Below are positions 9,732-17,082 of a stretch of 43,050 nt of DNA, piece by piece. The first letter of the stretch is position 1; each line of letters begins with the position of its first letter. The notes below the pieces were generated by a model that was not told the origin of the DNA, made no database searches, and was given only the letters and a program-made list of their open reading frames with translations. A program made the translations under genes and the position numbers. The stretch lies in NCBI GenBank assembly GCA_019244235.1, contig JAFASY010000314.1, forward strand, positions 1 to 43,050, read 5' to 3'. This DNA is from Chroococcidiopsidaceae cyanobacterium CP_BM_ER_R8_30. GTDB taxonomy: Bacteria; Cyanobacteriota; Cyanobacteriia; Cyanobacteriales; Chroococcidiopsidaceae.

Positions 9732-9977
9732 CTAACGATCTTGATGTCGCTCACTCGCCGAGTCATAAGCAATTCTTTTGCGGGTCTCGCGTTCAGATAG
9801 ATTGGCGGGACCCTCTAGGAAAAACCTTTCCCGCCGTGCCAAGCGCTCAGCAATCGTTAGCGGATGCTCCGGGCTGACCCCATCACTATCTGGCGAGACG
9901 GAATTTTTCGGGGAGACGGTAGTCATTTCGACGTTTTTCGAGAAATCTAACCCTAAGTTAGCTTGAAATTTGACCAT
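9732..9977 (-). CDS. Small hypothetical protein
   Basis: This is an 81-residue frame with no family I recognise. The first third is polar and serine/proline-rich. The second is a charged, probably helical segment (TIAERLARRERFF, then a segment rich in R, E and K). The frame opens at a TTG at 9983, but the ATG at 9977 lies 11 bases after GGAGA, so I set the start there. It is divergent from the Nit1C-type cluster. A shorter frame on the other strand (9726-9878) also has a purine-rich leader, so the coding strand is not certain. Confidence 0.45.
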   Translation of the reverse strand: MVKFQANLGLDFSKNVEMTTVSPKNSVSPDSDGVSPEHPLTIAERLARRERFFLEGPANLSERETRKRIAYDSASERHQDR

Positions 9978-10016
9978 CTGCAATCTTTCTCCAGGTAGCT
10001 ACTAGTCTCGTCTCAT

Positions 10017-10038
10017 CACCTATCGATTTAAATAGGTG
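10017..10038. promoter_or_regulatory. Palindrome upstream of the nitrilase cluster
   Basis: CACCTAT and ATAGGTG form a perfect 7-bp inverted repeat with an 8-base AT-rich spacer, between the small minus-strand gene and the first Nit1C gene. Its symmetry fits a regulator operator. No GTA-N8-TAC NtcA site was found nearby. Confidence 0.4.
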
Positions 10039-10189
10039 TTTAATGTTGGTTAGAGACAGTCTGAGGGGTAGCGATCTTCATCCCTGATTTTATTGTTAGA
10101 CTTGGAAGTTTTGTATTGAAAAACACAAAAAGCCCTAAGAGCCAGCACTTAACCTAGCAGAACAATTCAAATTGACTTAAGAGAAAACT

Positions 10190-10672
10190 ATGCCTGAAGT
10201 AACAGCCCCTGCTCACAAAGCTGGTGACTTTTTTGTTGATTACGAAGAGAAGGTTTTTCCTGATGTTCAGGCAGAACCGGGTGAGAAAGCATTGATCACC
10301 TTCCATACCGTTGCTTTCGAGGGTTCTATTGGTTTGGTGAATTTACTAACTGCTACCCGTATTCTCCGTAAAGGGTTTGAGACTTCAATTCTGCTCTATG
10401 GTCCTGGTGTCACTCTCGGCGTGCAACGAGGCTTTCCTAAGATCGGGGACGAAGCATTTCCTGGTCATCAGGCTATGAATAACCAACTGATTAAGTTCAT
10501 GTCTGAGGGGGGTAAAGTTTACGCCTGTCGTTTCGCTCTGCAAGCTTTGTATGGTCATGGGGAACCTTCGTTGATTCCTGGTATCCGTCCGATTAGTCCC
10601 TTGGATGTGCTGGATATTGTTCTGCTTCACCGCAAAGAAGGTGCATTGATTCTCGATACCTGGACACTCTAA
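10190..10672 (+). CDS. MSMEG_0572/Sll0783-family nitrogen starvation response protein
   Basis: The 160-residue protein matches the MSMEG_0572 family (Synechocystis Sll0783), always the first gene of the Nit1C cluster. Features include the DsrE-like central segment ([37 protein letters not shown]) and the conserved end [16 protein letters not shown]. The family is induced by nitrogen starvation, and in Synechocystis its loss affects polyhydroxybutyrate accumulation. The biochemical role is not known. It begins a four-gene operon with 33 bases to the nitrilase. Confidence 0.93.
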
Positions 10673-10705
10673 ATGTAGTGCAACACTCTATCCCTTGAAA
10701 AACCT

Positions 10706-11710
10706 ATGGATGACTCACACAGGGTTCGAGCAGCCGCAGTGCAGATTAGCCCAGTTCTGTTCAGCCGGGATGGAACGATGGATAAGGTGCTACAGGCGCT
10801 CGTCAAAGCGGCTCAAGAGGGAGTACAACTCGTCGTTTTCCCAGAGACATTTGTGCCTTACTACCCCTACTTCTCGTTTGTGCAGCCTCCAGTGTTAATG
10901 GGCAAAGAGCATAGGCGGCTGTATGAAGAAGCGGTAACAGTGCCAGGTCCAGTAACTGATACCGTTAGCCGAGCTGCTCGCTCTTACGGCATTGTAGTGC
11001 TATTAGGAGTCAATGAGCGGGATAACGGTTCACTGTACAATACTCAACTGCTATTTGACGCTGATGGCACTCTGCTACTGAAGCGACGCAAAATTACTCC
11101 TACCTACCACGAGCGCATGATTTGGGGGCAGGGAGATGGTTCGGGGTTAAAAGTTGTGCCTACTGCTGTCGGCAGACTGGGTTCTCTAGCTTGCTGGGAA
11201 CATTACAATCCCCTAGCCCGGTTTGCTCTTATGGCACAGCACGAGCAGATTCACTGCTCCCAGTTTCCTGGCTCCTTAGTCGGGCAGATTTTCACAGATC
11301 AGATCGAAGTCACAATTCGCCACCATGCTCTAGAATCAGCCTGTTTTGTGGTCAACGCCACTGGCTGGCTCTCCCCAGAGCAAGTAGGACAAATTACCCC
11401 AGATGAGAAATTGCAGTGCGTACTCATAGGAGGCTGCAACACAGCAATTATCGGACCAGAAGGTAACCATCTCTGTCCACCAATTACGGAGGGAGAGGGA
11501 ATGGCGATCGCCGATCTAGATTTTTCTTTGATCACCAAGCGCAAGCGAATGATGGACTCTGTTGGTCATTATGCCCGCCCTGATTTACTACAGTTGCGCA
11601 TTAACATGAGTGCCATGTCATTAATGGCACCAGCTCAGTCAACGGATGGAGCAGAGATAGACAAACAGCTCATTGACGTTCCAGTAGCGTCTTTGTACGA
11701 GCTTAGCTGA
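10706..11710 (+). CDS. Nitrilase (Sll0784/Nit1 type)
   Basis: This 334-residue enzyme hydrolyses nitriles to carboxylic acids and ammonia. The catalytic triad is visible: E47 in VVFPETF, K129 in [14 protein letters not shown], and C163 in [12 protein letters not shown]. It closely matches the clade-1 nitrilases of Nit1C clusters such as Synechocystis Nit6803, including the [12 protein letters not shown] segment after the Lys. Neighbours confirm the assignment: the MSMEG_0572 gene before it and the radical SAM gene 6 bases after it. The natural substrate is unknown; related clusters have been linked to cyanide or nitrile assimilation. Confidence 0.95.
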
Positions 11711-11716
11711 GTACTG

Positions 11717-12805
11717 ATGAACAAACACAAATTGATTACAGAACTACAGTCACATGGGCTGAAACTGGTTGAACCGGGAATTGGCTCTGCCGGACGTCAG
11801 GGTGGGGCTGGTCCTTCCGATCATAAAGCAGTAACAGTGGATGGTACGACGGTCATGGTGCCGACTTTCAACAGTACTGCGGCTCAGTCACCCTACACTG
11901 TGAACATTAACGAAGCAACAGCTCAGGCAATTTTGGAATTGGATGGAGAAGCAGTCACATCGATTAGTTTTCCTCCCCAGCCAAAATTCTACAGCCTCAA
12001 GACTGCTGATGGTATTCCTTACTGGCAGATTGCACTGCTGCATAGCCATGACGTTCTAGCAACAACAGTTTTGCAAACTTGTATCCGCTATGGCGATACG
12101 GCGACCTCCTGCCAGTTTTGTGCTATCGGGCAATCCTTGGCAGCAGGTAAAACCATTGCCCGTAAGACTCCTGCTCAACTAGCTGAGGTGGCAGCAGCGG
12201 CGGTGAAGTTGGATGGAGTTAAGCATCTGGTAATGACAACGGGAACGCCAAATACGGGTGATCGCGGTGCTGCCTACTTAGCAGAATGTGCCGAAGCAAT
12301 CAAAGCCAACGTTGACCTACCAATTCAGGCACAGTGCGAACCGCCCGATGATTTCACCTGGTTTAAGCGCATGCAGGCTGCTGGCATAGACAGTTTGGGA
12401 ATGCACCTAGAAGCCATCGAGCCACAGGTGCGAGCAAAAATTATGCCAGGAAAGGCAACAGTACCAGTGGAGTACTACTTTGAGGCATTTACCTGTGCAG
12501 TTGAGGTTTTTGGTTGGGGACAGGTGAGTACATATCTGCTAGCAGGTTTGGGAGATAGTTTGGAGATGTTACTGATGACATGCGATCGCCTGATCCAAGT
12601 CGGCGTTTATCCCTTCGTCGTGCCCTTTGTACCAATTACGGGAACGCCGTTGGCAGGTCATCCTGCTCCCAAAAGTGAGTTCATGTACGCGCTCTATAAA
12701 CAGGTGGGCACTATGCTACAGCAAGCAGGGATGAGTTCTAAAGATATCAAGGCAGGTTGTGCCAAGTGCGGTGCTTGCTCTGCCCTCTCTACCTTTGAAA
12801 AGTAG
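11717..12805 (+). CDS. MSMEG_0568-family radical SAM protein
   Basis: This 362-residue protein is the radical SAM member of the Nit1C cluster (Sll0785). The cluster-binding motif is TCIRYGDTATSCQFCAIG, giving C122-x9-C132-x2-C135 rather than the usual C-x3-C-x2-C. A TIM-barrel region follows (VMTTGTPNTGDRG, IQAQCEPP, LGMHLEAIEP). The C terminus has another cysteine group (AGCAKCGACSAL), which could hold a second iron-sulfur cluster. It may act on the nitrilase substrate or make a nitrile-containing compound; neither is shown. It starts 6 bases after the nitrilase stop, so the two are co-transcribed. Confidence 0.92.
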   Translation: MNKHKLITELQSHGLKLVEPGIGSAGRQGGAGPSDHKAVTVDGTTVMVPTFNSTAAQSPYTVNINEATAQAILELDGEAVTSISFPPQPKFYSLKTADGIPYWQIALLHSHDVLATTVLQTCIRYGDTATSCQFCAIGQSLAAGKTIARKTPAQLAEVAAAAVKLDGVKHLVMTTGTPNTGDRGAAYLAECAEAIKANVDLPIQAQCEPPDDFTWFKRMQAAGIDSLGMHLEAIEPQVRAKIMPGKATVPVEYYFEAFTCAVEVFGWGQVSTYLLAGLGDSLEMLLMTCDRLIQVGVYPFVVPFVPITGTPLAGHPAPKSEFMYALYKQVGTMLQQAGMSSKDIKAGCAKCGACSALSTFEK

Positions 12806-12917
12806 CAATGGTACGTAACCTGATACAGCCGCTACCCTTCAGAACAAAGTAAAAAATCATACTCATCTGCGTTCATTCCTTGTGCATCTGCGTTTGCAAA
12901 AAAGGTGATAAGGATCT

Positions 12918-13418
12918 ATGACAGAGCAACGCTACAAGTTTAAGTTGGCCCTGTCTCCCCATGAGGTGAAAGCTTACTTTGAGCTAAGACGGGCAATCTT
13001 CTGTCACGAGCAAAAACTCTTTACAGATAGTGATGAAGACGAGATTGACTCTTACGCGTATCCCATTGTGGCTATTGATTGCGAAGCAGCTTCCTTAAAC
13101 CAAGTTGTAGGTGTTGTAAGGATTTACGAATCACAGCCGGGACTTTGGTATGGAGGCAGACTAGGTGTACATCAGGATTATCGTCGTGGCGGTCAAATTG
13201 GTAAGGGGCTGATCTACAAAGCAGTTACGACTGCTAACACATGGGGGTGCGAACGATTCCTCGCAACGGTGCAATTACAAAACGTGCGATTCTTTCAACG
13301 GCTTCACTGGCAGCCTTTAGAAGAGATCGCCATTTGTGTTAACCCAACAGATCCCAAACAGCTTCCTCATCAACTCATGGTAGCCGATCTGAACTACTAT
13401 CCTCCTGCTTTACTTTAG
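12918..13418 (+). CDS. MSMEG_0567/Sll0786-family GNAT acetyltransferase
   Basis: The 166-residue protein has a GNAT fold: a substrate-side helix region (AYFELRRAIFCHEQKLF), a beta strand with VVGVVRIYE, and an acetyl-CoA pyrophosphate loop in LGVHQDYRRGGQIGKGL, followed by FLATVQLQNVRFFQRLHW. It matches the fourth gene of Nit1C clusters. The gap from the radical SAM gene is 112 bases, longer than elsewhere in the cluster. Its TAG (13416-13418) overlaps the stop codon of the DUF1566 fragment on the other strand. The AIR-synthase-like and flavoprotein genes that usually follow are missing. Confidence 0.9.
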   Translation: MTEQRYKFKLALSPHEVKAYFELRRAIFCHEQKLFTDSDEDEIDSYAYPIVAIDCEAASLNQVVGVVRIYESQPGLWYGGRLGVHQDYRRGGQIGKGLIYKAVTTANTWGCERFLATVQLQNVRFFQRLHWQPLEEIAICVNPTDPKQLPHQLMVADLNYYPPALL

Positions 13419-13819
13419 TGGTGATCCCTCAGCAAGCGTACCGACTCTGGGTATGGTCCGCAGTTATCACCCACACCGGTACCGAAATCAATGCACCAAA
13501 GCTGGTTCCTGTCAAAAGGCGTGCTAGTCCAGTAGCTCTCGCCATCGCGAGGAATGTCAGGAAAAACAACTACATTGATATAGGGATCGGTTCCGTGCTC
13601 CTTGCGCTGGTTATCGATTAGTGTCAGCAATTCATCTCTAGTCGGGAGACGCCAGCCATTACTAGCCAATTGTGGTAGCTCTTCGCGTGCGTAGCGCCGC
13701 AGGACACCAACGCACCCAAGTCCCTCCTGATACATTTGACCCATACAACAACGCTGCCAGGTCAGACCAGTGCATTCGCCCTGTTGGGACAGTGGTTTGA
13801 GTTTTGTTTGTGGTCCCAA
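13415..13819 (-). pseudogene. DUF1566 (Lcl C-terminal) domain fragment
   Basis: The frame encodes a DUF1566 domain: TGLTWQRCCMGQ, LASNGWRLPTRDELLTLID, YWTSTPFDRNQLWCIDFGTG and VRLLRDHH. This fold is common in secreted or surface proteins of unknown function. No ATG begins it; the frame starts at a TTG (13819) and stays open to about 13879, inside the attC-like site, where the predicted residues no longer look like the family. The usual N-terminal half of such proteins is absent. It is probably a truncated gene, or a reverse-oriented cassette gene, left beside the integron-like site. It converges on the GNAT gene with overlapping stop codons. Confidence 0.65.
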
Positions 13820-13874
13820 AAGCGCCCATAAGATGAACGGTGAGGCGTATTGGAGGGCGAACGGTCCTTGCTCC

Positions 13875-13957
13875 AGCTAACACGGCAGTGCAGCGGATTG
13901 AGGGGCGATCAAGGCTGCGTTTGGGTCATCTGCAACCGCTGACTTTTGCCGTTAGGC
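13875..13957 (+). repeat. attC-like recombination site (59-base element)
   Basis: This 83-bp imperfect inverted repeat has integron attC architecture. The right end carries the simple-site core GTTAGGC (13951-13957, matching GTTRRRY). The left end carries GCTAAC (13876-13881), complementary to it at all but one position. Inside, CAGCGGATTG pairs with CAACCGCTG across the site with one unpaired A, resembling the extrahelical bases that direct strand choice in attC sites. It lies just upstream of a SnoaL-like gene in the position expected of the preceding cassette's attC. No integrase gene is in the window. Confidence 0.65.
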
Positions 13958-14014
13958 GTTGCTACTGGCATACTGTTTGCTGGACAAAGCTAGATTCCAA
14001 GTTATGGAGGAGCC

Positions 14015-14404
14015 ATGATCCCGACCAAGGCTACTATCATCCGTAAGACGTACGACGACTTCACCAAGGGCGATATTCCCGCGGTCCTTGAGGCATTCGA
14101 CGCATCGATCACCTGGCACGTGCCGGGTCACAGTCTGTTGTCGGGCGACTACAAGGGCCACGAGGAGGTCGTCGGATTTTTCAAACACACCATGGAACTT
14201 TGCGGCGGTATCTTCGGGATCGAAGTTCATCACGTCCTTGCTGAAGAAGATATCGTGGTAGCGCTCGTGACTGTTAAGGCGGAACGCAACGGTCGCTCCG
14301 CGGCATTCCCGGAGGTGCACGTATGGCGGCTTGCGAATGGAAAGGTCTCAGAGTTCCGCGAATTCCAAGGGGACGAGCAGACAGAGGATAGCTTCTGGTC
14401 GTAG
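14015..14404 (+). CDS. SnoaL-like / NTF2-fold protein (probable integron cassette gene)
   Basis: This 129-residue protein matches SnoaL-like, ketosteroid-isomerase-related proteins: an N-terminal helix pair (IIRKTYDDFTKGDIPAVLEA), the pocket strand DASITWHVPGHSLLSGDYKG, and the C-terminal EVHVWRLANGKVSEFREF. The family includes small-molecule isomerases, hydrolases and ligand binders, so the substrate is open. GGAGGA lies at 14006-14011 before the ATG. GC content and GC-ending codons are visibly higher than in neighbours and no HIP1 octamer is present, which suggests transfer. It sits between two attC-like sites in the same orientation, with short flanks of about 57 and 53 bases, as in gene cassettes. 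Confidence 0.85.
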   Translation: MIPTKATIIRKTYDDFTKGDIPAVLEAFDASITWHVPGHSLLSGDYKGHEEVVGFFKHTMELCGGIFGIEVHHVLAEEDIVVALVTVKAERNGRSAAFPEVHVWRLANGKVSEFREFQGDEQTEDSFWS

Positions 14405-14803
14405 GGGACATTGTTTAGGTAGGCAACTGCCACAGTCACGTCCTGCTAGATGTCTGCGCCTAACAATCGCTTCGAGTTGGACGGCTTACCTGGAGCGCAG
14501 CTCCAGTTGTATTTTGTTGTCTTAAAAAAACTACTTCTCAGACATCCTCTAACTGCCTATAATCTCTTGCAATGAGCAGCCAACAATGCTATCGGGATCG
14601 AAGAAACAGAACCTTACAGGACATGTCACGACGCTAACCTGCGGGGAAGACGGAGCTTCTGTTGGATTGAGCTAAAAAATGTCTTCACAATTTTTTCTGA
14701 AACGAAGAAACAATCTTTACATCATCCTAGTTAAATTACTTATTCAAGACGGTAGCCTTTAATCCAATATCTACTTAAGTCAATCAAGGATAATAACGAA
14801 ACA
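14405..14803 (+). other. Interval with half attC and no gene
   Basis: This 400-base stretch holds the left half of a second attC-like site (annotated separately) and a short hairpin. The rest, from about 14510 to 14800, is AT-rich. It presumably contains the promoter of the secreted protein gene, preceded by AAGGA 13 bases before its ATG. No other gene is visible. Confidence 0.5.
14458..14506 (+). repeat. Left half of an attC-like site
   Basis: GCCTAACAATCGCTTCGAG followed by a TTGGACGG box is the canonical left arm of many integron attC sites (R'' core GCCTAAC at 14458-14464). A perfect hairpin, CTGGAGC-GCA-GCTCCAG (14490-14506), follows where the variable loop would be. The right arm with GTTAGGC is missing; the sequence turns AT-rich instead. 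The site is therefore truncated or decayed. Confidence 0.6.
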
Positions 14804-15466
14804 ATGATTGTAGTCAAGAAAGCATTGTCGCTTTTTGGTCTGTGGGCATTTGCCCTTAGTGGTGGCATTTTCTCCCTTGCTCTAACAAGTCTTTCAGCTG
14901 ATGCAGCGCCCCCACCAGCAGTTTTTAGGGATAGTGCGGGGAATGTTTATGTTCACTCTGGAGTCAATCCTAATGAGCATTTGAAAGTTGGACTCATAGG
15001 ACAACCCTACAAAAAGAGCATTAAAGCTGGAGCCTGTGGGCAGATTTCTATTGGCACTAGCACTTCCATGCCTTCTGTTGGTAACACCATCGTCATCGAT
15101 GGGACAACGATTGACCTGACTAAAATTGCTGTTGCTAGTTCAGTACCCAAATGTACTAATGGAGTATATACCCCAACTCCTAGTGGCAACTTTCAGACGG
15201 CAAAAGGCAGATATGAGTTGGTGGGATACACAGCTGGACAATCATACTCAGTGACTTTTAGTGATGTACCCAATCATTTCAATGCCACTGTCAATGGCTG
15301 TGGTTTCGCAGCAATCAAAAGTACAGCTAATCACCCCCTATCAACAGCTTCACAGCTCACAATTAATGGAACTGCTTATACTATTTCTACTTTGACTATT
15401 GCTGACCCCCCACTGTGTAAGAAAAATGGTTCGACTGTGACTATGTACACTCCTGCTAGTTGGTGA
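14804..15466 (+). CDS. Secreted protein with duplicated cysteine-pair module
   Basis: The 220-residue protein begins with a clear signal peptide (MIVVKKALSLFGLWAFALSG, cleavage near SADAAPP), so it is exported to the periplasm or beyond. The mature part contains two similar modules. Each starts at a cysteine (CGQISI, CGFAAI), contains a hydrophobic strand pattern (NTIVIDGTTIDL; SQLTINGTAYTI) and ends at a second cysteine (VPKC; PPLC) followed by YTP. Each module probably forms one disulfide. I do not recognise a family. The stop codon TGA at 15464 coincides with the edge of a TnpB element, so the original C terminus may have been cut by that insertion. Confidence 0.75.
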   Translation: MIVVKKALSLFGLWAFALSGGIFSLALTSLSADAAPPPAVFRDSAGNVYVHSGVNPNEHLKVGLIGQPYKKSIKAGACGQISIGTSTSMPSVGNTIVIDGTTIDLTKIAVASSVPKCTNGVYTPTPSGNFQTAKGRYELVGYTAGQSYSVTFSDVPNHFNATVNGCGFAAIKSTANHPLSTASQLTINGTAYTISTLTIADPPLCKKNGSTVTMYTPASW

Positions 15467-15597
15467 CATCCTCCCACCGAAATCGCGGGGGGCTCCGACC
15501 TCAGCGATTTCGGTGGGAGGGGGAGAGCGGGAAGTCGATGGGGTTCAACACCCCGGAGACTTCCAATAATTTCCCGCTTCGTGGTACTATTATATAC

Positions 15598-16484
15598 ATG
15601 AACCAAGTACTGACACTAGTTGTAAGACTCCAACCTACCCCAGAACAGTGTGCCAAGCTTAAGGATACTGTTTTGGAGTTCGCGTCATGCTGCGAGTTCA
15701 TAAATTCCTCAGTTAAGCCGACACTCACTAACCGTAACTCTATCCAAGCAGTGATATACAACGATGCCAAAGACAAGTTCAATTTGGTGTCTAACCATGT
15801 CATTCGTGCTTGTGCCAGAGTTGGGGCTAATCGCTTAACTGCCAAACATAAAGGTGCCGAACGGGCTGGAGGCGACCTCCAGCCCGCAAGCGGCACCGAA
15901 TTCGAGATAAGTTTGCCAGAGTTAGAGCTTCTTTACAACGCAAGGCTTCCCAAGGCATAAGGTCTACACGGCGTAGATGCCGACAGATTTTGCAACGGTT
16001 ATCGGGAAGAGAGAGAAGATTTCAATCCTGGCTTAATCACAATATCAGTAAGAGTATAATTACCGAAGCCAAGGAATTAAACAGCGTACTAGCAATTGAG
16101 GATTTAACGGGAATTCGTGAGAGAACAAACAAACAACCAAGGGCTAAAACAGAGCGGCGTCGCTCTAATTCCTGGTCATTTCATCAGTTGCGTATCTTTC
16201 TAGAGTACAAGGGTATTAAGGAAGGGGTTAAAGTCGTAGTTGTTCCTCCTGCCTATACCTCTCAAACCTGCCATTGCTGCCTTCACCTTGGTGTAAGAAC
16301 CAATAAGAAATTTAAGTGCATTAACCAGTTTTGTGGATGGATTGGGGATGCAGACACTAACGGTTCGCGTGTAATTGCTTTGCTTGGGGCGACCTATGTA
16401 AACTCGCCCGATAAAGGTCCCTGGTTATCTTGTCCTTTGGATGAGATAGTTGGAGGGCTGTTGAAAGCGTCTGCAAGAGCGTAG
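15598..16484 (+). pseudogene. tnpB: Broken TnpB (OrfB-type RNA-guided nuclease)
   Basis: The N-terminal part (MNQVLTLVVRLQPTPEQCAK, from the ATG at 15598) runs into a frame that stops at 15960. The C-terminal part continues in another frame from before 15900 to 16484, with RLSGRERRFQ, the RuvC glutamate in LAIEDLTGI, the zinc finger SQTCHCCLH...CINQFCGW, and GDADTN. The middle of the protein, including the first catalytic Asp (GIDLG in relatives), is missing. A 45-bp hairpin repeat (15853-15897) sits near the junction. The gene therefore carries both a deletion and a frameshift and cannot make active TnpB. Confidence 0.85.
15853..15897. repeat. Palindromic hairpin repeat inside the tnpB relic
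   Basis: An interrupted perfect stem: GGTGCCG (15853) pairs with CGGCACC (15891), and GGGCTGGAGG (15863) pairs with CCTCCAGCCC (15876), with loop CGA. The inner CTGGAGG-N3-CCTCCAG core is identical to that of the hairpin at 25689-25730, which suggests a dispersed small repeat. Confidence 0.6.
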
Positions 16485-16534: not shown

Positions 16535-16807
16535 TCACCGTTCGGTCAAGCGACCGGTAACATACTTATGCAAAATGCTCGAAATGAACGTTTGATAGGG
16601 GATGCCCTCTTCGATGGCTCGCGCTTGAATTGCATCGAGATCGACCGACGAGAGCCGGAGGGTAATCCGCTTGTCTTTTGCGAGCGTAGCCTTGGCATAC
16701 CTTTGGAGTTGCTGCAGGCGACCTCTATCACTGACTGGCTCCCACTCGCCGCGCTCGAACGATTCGAGAAAATCCTTTTCTTCCTCGTCAAGTTCACTCA
16801 TGGTCAT
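16535..16807 (-). CDS. Ribbon-helix-helix antitoxin
   Basis: The 90-residue protein has an acidic N-terminal part (ELDEEEKDFLESFERGEWEP) likely to wrap the toxin, and a C-terminal ribbon-helix-helix-like DNA-binding region (KRITLRLSSVDLDAIQARAI, then GIPYQTFISSILHKY). It is the second gene of a type II toxin-antitoxin operon. Its ATG (16807) overlaps the toxin's TGA in an ATGA junction, which favours this start over the ATG at 16801. It would neutralise the toxin and repress the operon. The toxin-first order is typical of BrnT-type pairs. Confidence 0.85.
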   Translation of the reverse strand: MTMSELDEEEKDFLESFERGEWEPVSDRGRLQQLQRYAKATLAKDKRITLRLSSVDLDAIQARAIEEGIPYQTFISSILHKYVTGRLTER

Positions 16808-17082
16808 AGCCTCCTTCCAAGGTAGTCTTTCGTCGCCTTGCGCGATGGAATGATTGTTTTCAAGAATACTTCCGACTCGGTATCCACATACTTGACAATA
16901 TACGCGTAGCCTTTAATCTGAACGATGAGAATACGCTGGTTCGGGTACTTCCCTTGATTCGGGTGCGTGAAGTCATCGAGCAAGTCTCCTCGCTCCACCG
17001 CCGCCAACACCGCTTCAAATGAGACGCCTCGTTCTGATTTGAGCTTCTTGTTCTTCGCTTGCTCCCAGCGAATAACTTTCAT
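16804..17082 (-). CDS. BrnT-like toxin
   Basis: The 92-residue protein shows BrnT-type features: a basic N-terminal segment (VIRWEQAKNKKLKSERGVSF, compare WD..KN..KHGVSFEE), a strand with ILIVQIKGYAYIVKYV and a C-terminal IIPSRKATKDYL where BrnT proteins have ISARKAT. Toxins of this fold cleave RNA and inhibit translation. It overlaps the downstream antitoxin gene by four bases. A near-palindromic site lies just upstream (17098-17115), suited to autorepression. It could belong to a sister family rather than BrnT itself. Confidence 0.75.
   Translation of the reverse strand: MKVIRWEQAKNKKLKSERGVSFEAVLAAVERGDLLDDFTHPNQGKYPNQRILIVQIKGYAYIVKYVDTESEVFLKTIIPSRKATKDYLGRRL

Follow-up and report, generated by a model that had tools for sequence, protein, structure and literature searches.

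A probable relic of an integron cassette array, with a SnoaL-like gene, in a cyanobacterial genome with no integron integrase over cut-off

Background

The integron integrase, IntI, cuts the folded bottom strand of an attC site at the G/TT of its R' box, and a cassette spans the DNA from the TT of one attC to the G of the next. The core boxes of attC follow the consensus RYYYAAC for R'' and GTTRRRY for R'. According to the available parts of the papers cited here, integrons are already in print for cyanobacteria (PMC2426708, PMC8618304, PMC9668308), and a Cyanobacteria attC model has been published (PMC8352920, PMC9176274). In Xanthomonas, the available part of one paper reports that the integrase was lost and that the arrays survive (PMC12444791). 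Clusters of attC sites without an integron integrase are called CALIN, and the part of its description available to us gives at least two attC sites as the default of IntegronFinder 2.0 (PMC9024848). Finally, the insertion of cassettes at genomic sites of the attG type is credited to Loot et al. (2024) in the available parts of PMC12444791 and PMC12901181.

Since cyanobacterial integrons, an attC model for them and the loss of the integrase in Xanthomonas are all in print, the locus described below is not new in kind: it adds one more case to a gene-capture system already known, and no new type of element is involved. In the open-access literature, we found nothing on this locus or on an integron of Kovacikia, the cyanobacterium that provides its closest relatives.

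Overview of the locus

The window (the whole stretch of DNA analysed here, 43,050 bases) is contig C106 of a draft genome of 5.54 Mb in 328 contigs, in which two matches of the photosystem II CP43/CP47 type exceed the family cut-off and so mark the host as a cyanobacterium. The locus that it carries is probably what remains of an array of integron cassettes; no IntI over cut-off was found in the host. Its features are the following:

13781..13957, + strand: 3' portion of a short cyanobacterial-type cassette without an ORF, which ends in site 1 (blastn)
13875..13957, + strand: attC site 1 (covariance model R1, 59 bits, E=2.5e-13); R'' AGCTAAC at 13875-13881, unpaired G at 13890, R' GTTAGGC at 13951-13957
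13952..14506, + strand: putative remnant of the SnoaL cassette, between the TT in the R' box of site 1 and the point where the cassette's own attC breaks off (7/7 R-box match; putative boundaries, set by the G/TT crossover rule)
14006..14011, + strand: GGAGGA, likely ribosome-binding site (read from the sequence)
14015..14404, + strand: SnoaL-like ORF (SnoaL_2, PF12680; Pfam E=9.9e-18), 129 aa, P0001
14458..14506, + strand: putative left half of the attC of the SnoaL cassette; R'' GCCTAAC at 14458-14464, apical 7-bp hairpin at 14490-14506
14507..14549, - strand: probable remnant of an IS; AT-rich, with a terminal inverted repeat of IS5 type at 14531-14549

With a CALIN the window has in common an attC site, a cassette gene, a single orientation and the lack of an integrase over cut-off; it differs in holding one complete attC and one half, while three sites in a row on another contig of the same genome (C189) would pass the default as given in the available part of the CALIN paper. 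The original prediction, a captured cassette or a CALIN, stands as far as the cassette is concerned; with one complete attC, the window alone falls below the CALIN default. Compared with the cyanobacterial integron attC, as far as the available part of PMC8352920 describes it, site 1 belongs to an integrase-linked attC family, as judged with a model built on Kovacikia sites (R1, see below), and the genome differs in having no integrase over cut-off. Kovacikia minuta CCNUW1 is alike in that a site of its plasmid pA is 82% identical to site 1 and that pA carries homologous short ORF-less cassettes. However, pA has rows of attC sites and plasmid pB has an annotated integrase, whereas in the window one site stands alone, without an integrase. 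An attG-type insertion, as described in the available parts of the papers cited above, is likewise a case of cassette material outside an integron platform, but a cassette inserted singly in this way would begin, upstream, with a match to the R'' of site 1 and would have genomic sequence in R'. The 2.5 kb upstream of site 1 contain no such R-box match (GTTAGCT), which would also have marked the start of the upstream cassette.

An attC family linked to integron integrases

A region of Kovacikia plasmid pA carries a row of attC-like sites, all in one orientation, with 0-3 ORFs between neighbours in the pairs inspected. Ten aligned sites from this row, the window being excluded, were used to build the covariance model R1. 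The consensus fold of the source alignment comprises 19 pairs, 10 of which show changes on both sides. In addition, 90.5% of the alignment cells are paired, compared to 75.6% after shuffling and at most 43.9% after sliding; the structure used for this count came from the ten aligned sites themselves.

Of 386 cyanobacterial genomes, 22 encode an integron integrase that passes the TIGR02249 cut-off, and 30 have an IntI match at E<=1e-40. With R1 we scanned two pA loci and fifteen cyanobacterial regions that surround an integrase or a broken copy of one. This yielded 38 matches at E<=0.1, 11 on pA (all within its first 50 kb) and 27 in the integrase regions; sites were found beside the integrases in 11 of the 15 regions, up to nine per region, and none in the other four. 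No integrase over cut-off was found on pA, and pB has five R1 sites on the 5' side of its annotated integron integrase. The fact that R1 sites adjoin integrases, in these 11 regions as well as on pB, identifies the family as integron attC. The association also holds across whole genomes: at E<=1e-6, 79 of the 386 have sites. Genomes with an IntI match at E<=1e-40 account for 23 of these (out of 30) and genomes without one for 56 (out of 356; Fisher p=5e-12). At most 11 candidates were scored per genome, which makes the site counts lower bounds. With 56 genomes that have sites but no such IntI match, the fate of cassettes after the loss of the integrase becomes testable.

Site 1 and the cassette that it closes

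When R1 was run on both strands of the window, the sole match at E<=10 was 13875-13957, with the score given above (the E-values of R1 are rough, owing to a short calibration). This stretch is an imperfect inverted repeat of 83 bases with GTTAGGC at its 3' end and an unpaired G, at 13890, in the left stem; its imperfect stem and extrahelical base are part of a structure kept in relatives, as the covarying family model indicates. An attC-like repeat of 83 bp with that end and an unpaired base is what the original prediction had described, with coordinates that proved exact, and a scan with an attC covariance model, of the kind that it proposed but built on Kovacikia sites, has thus given a match. 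The R' box, GTTAGGC, lies within the attC consensus, and the R'' box, AGCTAAC, is off at one position. Taken alone, the DNA fold of site 1 is of ordinary stability (z=-1.05, 33 of 200 shuffles being equally stable); the evidence is therefore homology and covariation, not energy. The best plasmid match to site 1 (82.4% identity) is to Kovacikia pA, the sole record matched by blastn among 72,556 plasmid records, and Rfam, at gathering thresholds, gave no match in the window. Judged from its sequence, site 1 is a member of the integrase-linked cyanobacterial attC family.

The similarity to pA extends beyond the site itself. Positions 13839-13957 are 80.8% identical over 120 bases to 9966-10085 of a pA locus (L019), 13781-13866 are 78.4% identical over 88 bases to 9852-9939 of the same locus, and a second pA copy matches this tail at 75.2% over 145 bases. 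The two pA copies (L019, about 9780-10085 and 15398-15703) are short cassettes without an ORF, the tails of which are homologous to 13781-13957. Because of this homology, site 1 is taken to close an upstream cassette, the 3' part of which is still present.

The probable SnoaL cassette and its half site

The gene that follows site 1 encodes a SnoaL-like protein. As had been predicted, it is preceded by a strong GGAGGA and is richer in GC than its surroundings, with 56.2% GC and 70.0% GC at third codon positions (the highest values among the 25 ORFs measured in the window, which has 46.4% GC overall). A second copy, identical at 91% of bases, lies on another contig of the genome (C195, locus L009 231-620), and the match between the two is confined to the gene. 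The C195 copy is without an attC and follows the terminal part of an ORF located at the edge of the contig. The differences between the two copies fall 10, 2 and 21 times on the first, second and third codon positions (p=0.0003), a third-position bias that would fit a gene under selection. The nearest relative found outside the genome, with 83% amino acid identity, is in a soil Binataceae metagenome-assembled genome (MAG); 15 plasmid records match the protein, all below 60% identity and the best at about 33%, and there was no match in viral contigs. The original prediction had set conservation of the gene and its flanks in related genomes against its own reading; a search of the 386 cyanobacterial genomes at E<=1e-20 recovered the gene from its own genome alone.

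Fifty-four bases past the stop codon of the SnoaL ORF stands GCCTAAC (14458-14464), which had been taken for the canonical left arm of an attC. Site 1, the ORF and this half site are all on the + strand, in the single orientation and cassette-like spacing originally described. Of the two arms of an attC (R''-L'' and L'-R'), only the left one is present at 14458, R'' included, and it extends as far as the apical hairpin. Scored with the full R1, the half site reaches 10.5 bits (E=0.025 in 601 bases), and nothing but the R box is paired, its partner being a nearby GTTGGAC. With a profile of left halves built on 35 sites (the eight weakest R1 matches left out, five from pB added), 14458 comes out second to site 1 in the window (E=2.8). 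The half site has no relative in plasmids, its exact 19-base pattern is in none of the viral contigs, and the 386 cyanobacterial genomes hold three short matches beyond itself, none of them attC-like on inspection. The half site is thus not significant alone, and it is by its position and its exact R-box match that it may be recognized as part of an attC.

The R-box match draws its meaning from the way in which IntI works: as the cut falls at G/TT in R', the R' of one site should match the R'' of the next. We examined this hand-over in 22 pairs of consecutive sites at most 2 kb apart, taken from 37 of the 38 R1 matches (L068, with no neighbour, was left out) and three sites from C189; 6 of the 22 join pA sites that had served to build R1. 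The R' matched the R'' of the next site at 7/7 in 15 pairs and its own R'' in 3; shuffles gave a mean of 2.1 and a maximum of 9, and 7 pairs did not reach 7/7. In the window, the downstream GCCTAAC fits the R' of site 1 (GTTAGGC, 13951) at 7/7, and AGCTAAC, the R'' of site 1 itself, fits it at 5/7. It is the 7/7 match that argues most strongly for a genuine half site and for the SnoaL gene being part of a cassette. The cassette so delimited has an R' complementary to its own R'' (7/7) and a single ORF that points to its attC. Hand-over of the R box thus offers a simple, sequence-only test for cassette boundaries, and it works with one attC broken.

Although the half site is weak alone, it is improbable that the SnoaL gene reached a genuine attC relic (site 1) by a separate transfer and that GCCTAAC stands at 14458 by chance. 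No R1 site was found near the C195 copy (20.0 kb scanned) or the Binataceae copy (8.3 kb scanned) of the gene, which means that it also moves or lives without attC, as a separate arrival would have it. However, in about 200 kb of the same genome GCCTAAC has a density of 0.032 per kb per strand (13 in 400,928 strand-bases, these sites included), so that a chance match within the 501 bases after site 1 has a probability of about 2%; the second rank of 14458 in the whole window by the left-half profile also goes against chance.

The broken end

In the cassette reading, which we prefer, the attC of the SnoaL cassette is interrupted at 14506. At this point GC content falls from 59% (14458-14506) to 37% (14507-14803), and 25 bases past the cut begins an IS5-type terminal inverted repeat (14531-14549, GAGGATGTCTGAGAAGTAG), followed by TAA on the outside. 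In Sphaerospermopsis, a 21-base match to 14532-14552 ends an element of about 620 bases that encodes a DUF4096 (IS4/5-type) transposase and has a similar repeat at its opposite end. The right attC was probably lost through insertion of an IS5-type element in or beside it, followed by deletion. The right site had originally been described as decayed; a left half only is indeed what remains, and we infer that it was cut off beside an IS end rather than worn away slowly. The IS account is complicated by two observations. The repeat with its TAA is also found in a relative (G001), about 400 bases from a TnpB-type gene, where no IS5-type transposase was found around it among ORFs of at least 100 aa, and the stretch 14507-14800 has no second copy in its own genome at E<=0.001 among the 13 of 18 candidates scored.

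The history of the locus that we infer includes past recombination by IntI, an order of events, a deletion by the IS and a gene now fixed in place. While an integrase was present, folded bottom strands would have been exchanged at G/TT and cassettes moved in and out. An ORF-less cyanobacterial cassette ending in site 1 would have been followed by a SnoaL cassette of foreign composition, the attC of which would then have been cut at the hairpin tip by the IS5-type insertion and the deletion of most of the IS together with the right arm. With no integrase over cut-off and the right attC broken, the SnoaL gene should now be fixed in place, and site 1 might be used only by an integrase coming from outside.

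Other attC-like sites in the genome

No integron integrase over the TIGR02249 cut-off was found in the draft genome, in keeping with the cassette without an integrase originally described, and an assembly gap is possible; no integrase gene of the kind that a complete integron requires is thus recognized in the draft. Four IntI pieces score below the cut-off, the best with 57.8 of 265 bits. A search for further attC, also suggested with the original prediction, was productive: R1 matches 13 places at E<=10, and the 11 at E<0.01, ten besides the window's own, are spread over nine contigs. The three sites in a row on C189 (locus L098 1056-2772) show both hand-overs at 7/7 and have isochorismatase-type and glutathione S-transferase-type ORFs between them, making up a small array without an integrase. 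On contig C85 (locus L099 8157-8790), an attC-like site is followed by a GNAT acetyltransferase ORF and by the left half only of an attC (CACCTAACAACCCGGTTGGACC), a layout like that of the window; the R boxes of this half site do not match the R' of its neighbour. A contaminant contig was considered and rejected, as R1 sites are on other contigs of the genome, among them one with a photosystem II gene (C101). A cyanobacterium without a detected integrase thus keeps genes apparently gained through integrons, the SnoaL-like gene among them.

The scatter of these sites over nine contigs would suit another explanation, in which an integrase acting in trans placed cassettes in the chromosome at attG-type sites (neither attI nor attC), as the available parts of PMC12444791 and PMC12901181 describe, with no local integron. 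This was assessed on 40 sites hand-picked from part of the R1 list (loci L126-L165), 14 with a neighbour on the same strand and 26 solo (one of the latter, L153, with a weak match on the opposite strand). At 10 of the 26 solo sites, the complement of R'' occurs upstream at a distance of up to 2.5 kb (shuffled mean 4.3, p=0.002), and at 3 there is a downstream R-box match (mean 2.6, p=0.48), as insertion of lone cassettes predicts; the 14 sites with neighbours had 6 matches upstream and 6 downstream. Nevertheless, the site set was hand-picked, the wrong-side controls gave 3/26 and 0/26, and the upstream match is absent at the window, where two cassettes stand in a row, and at all other solo sites of the same genome. 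For this locus we therefore regard such an origin as very unlikely. As to cyanobacteria at large, it is a tentative possibility that the single cassettes scattered over many IntI-free genomes were put by IntI directly into ordinary chromosomal sites, the window being an eroded entry; if this were true, cyanobacteria would offer a natural record of attG-type cassette insertion. It can hardly be credited that site 1 has nothing to do with integrons and is just a hairpin repeat of cyanobacteria: similar sites are indeed scattered, also in the 56 genomes that have no IntI match at E<=1e-40, but the strong association with IntI, the rows beside integrases and the R-box hand-over all contradict it.

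Other features of the window

Upstream of the relic, the window carries a Nit1-type cluster (10190-13418) made up of MSMEG_0572, nitrilase, radical SAM and GNAT genes, without an AIR-synthase-like gene. The latter comes next after GNAT in two other genomes (G006 and G025), and its best match in the present genome is on contig C206. We do not claim that an insertion broke the cluster, as nothing links the move of the AIR-synthase-like gene to the cassettes. An Lcl_C-domain ORF (PF07603, E=3e-17) on the - strand, at 13415-13819, overlaps the GNAT stop codon and starts within the region homologous to the short cassettes. Downstream, ORFs for a CopG/BrnA-like antitoxin and a BrnT-like toxin, the BrnT match being below the Pfam cut-off, lie on the - strand at 16535-17082, and a fragment of a Cas12f1-like/TnpB C-terminal domain (PF07282) on the + strand at 15990-16484. 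Ahead of this fragment, there is an inverted repeat near 15466-15520.
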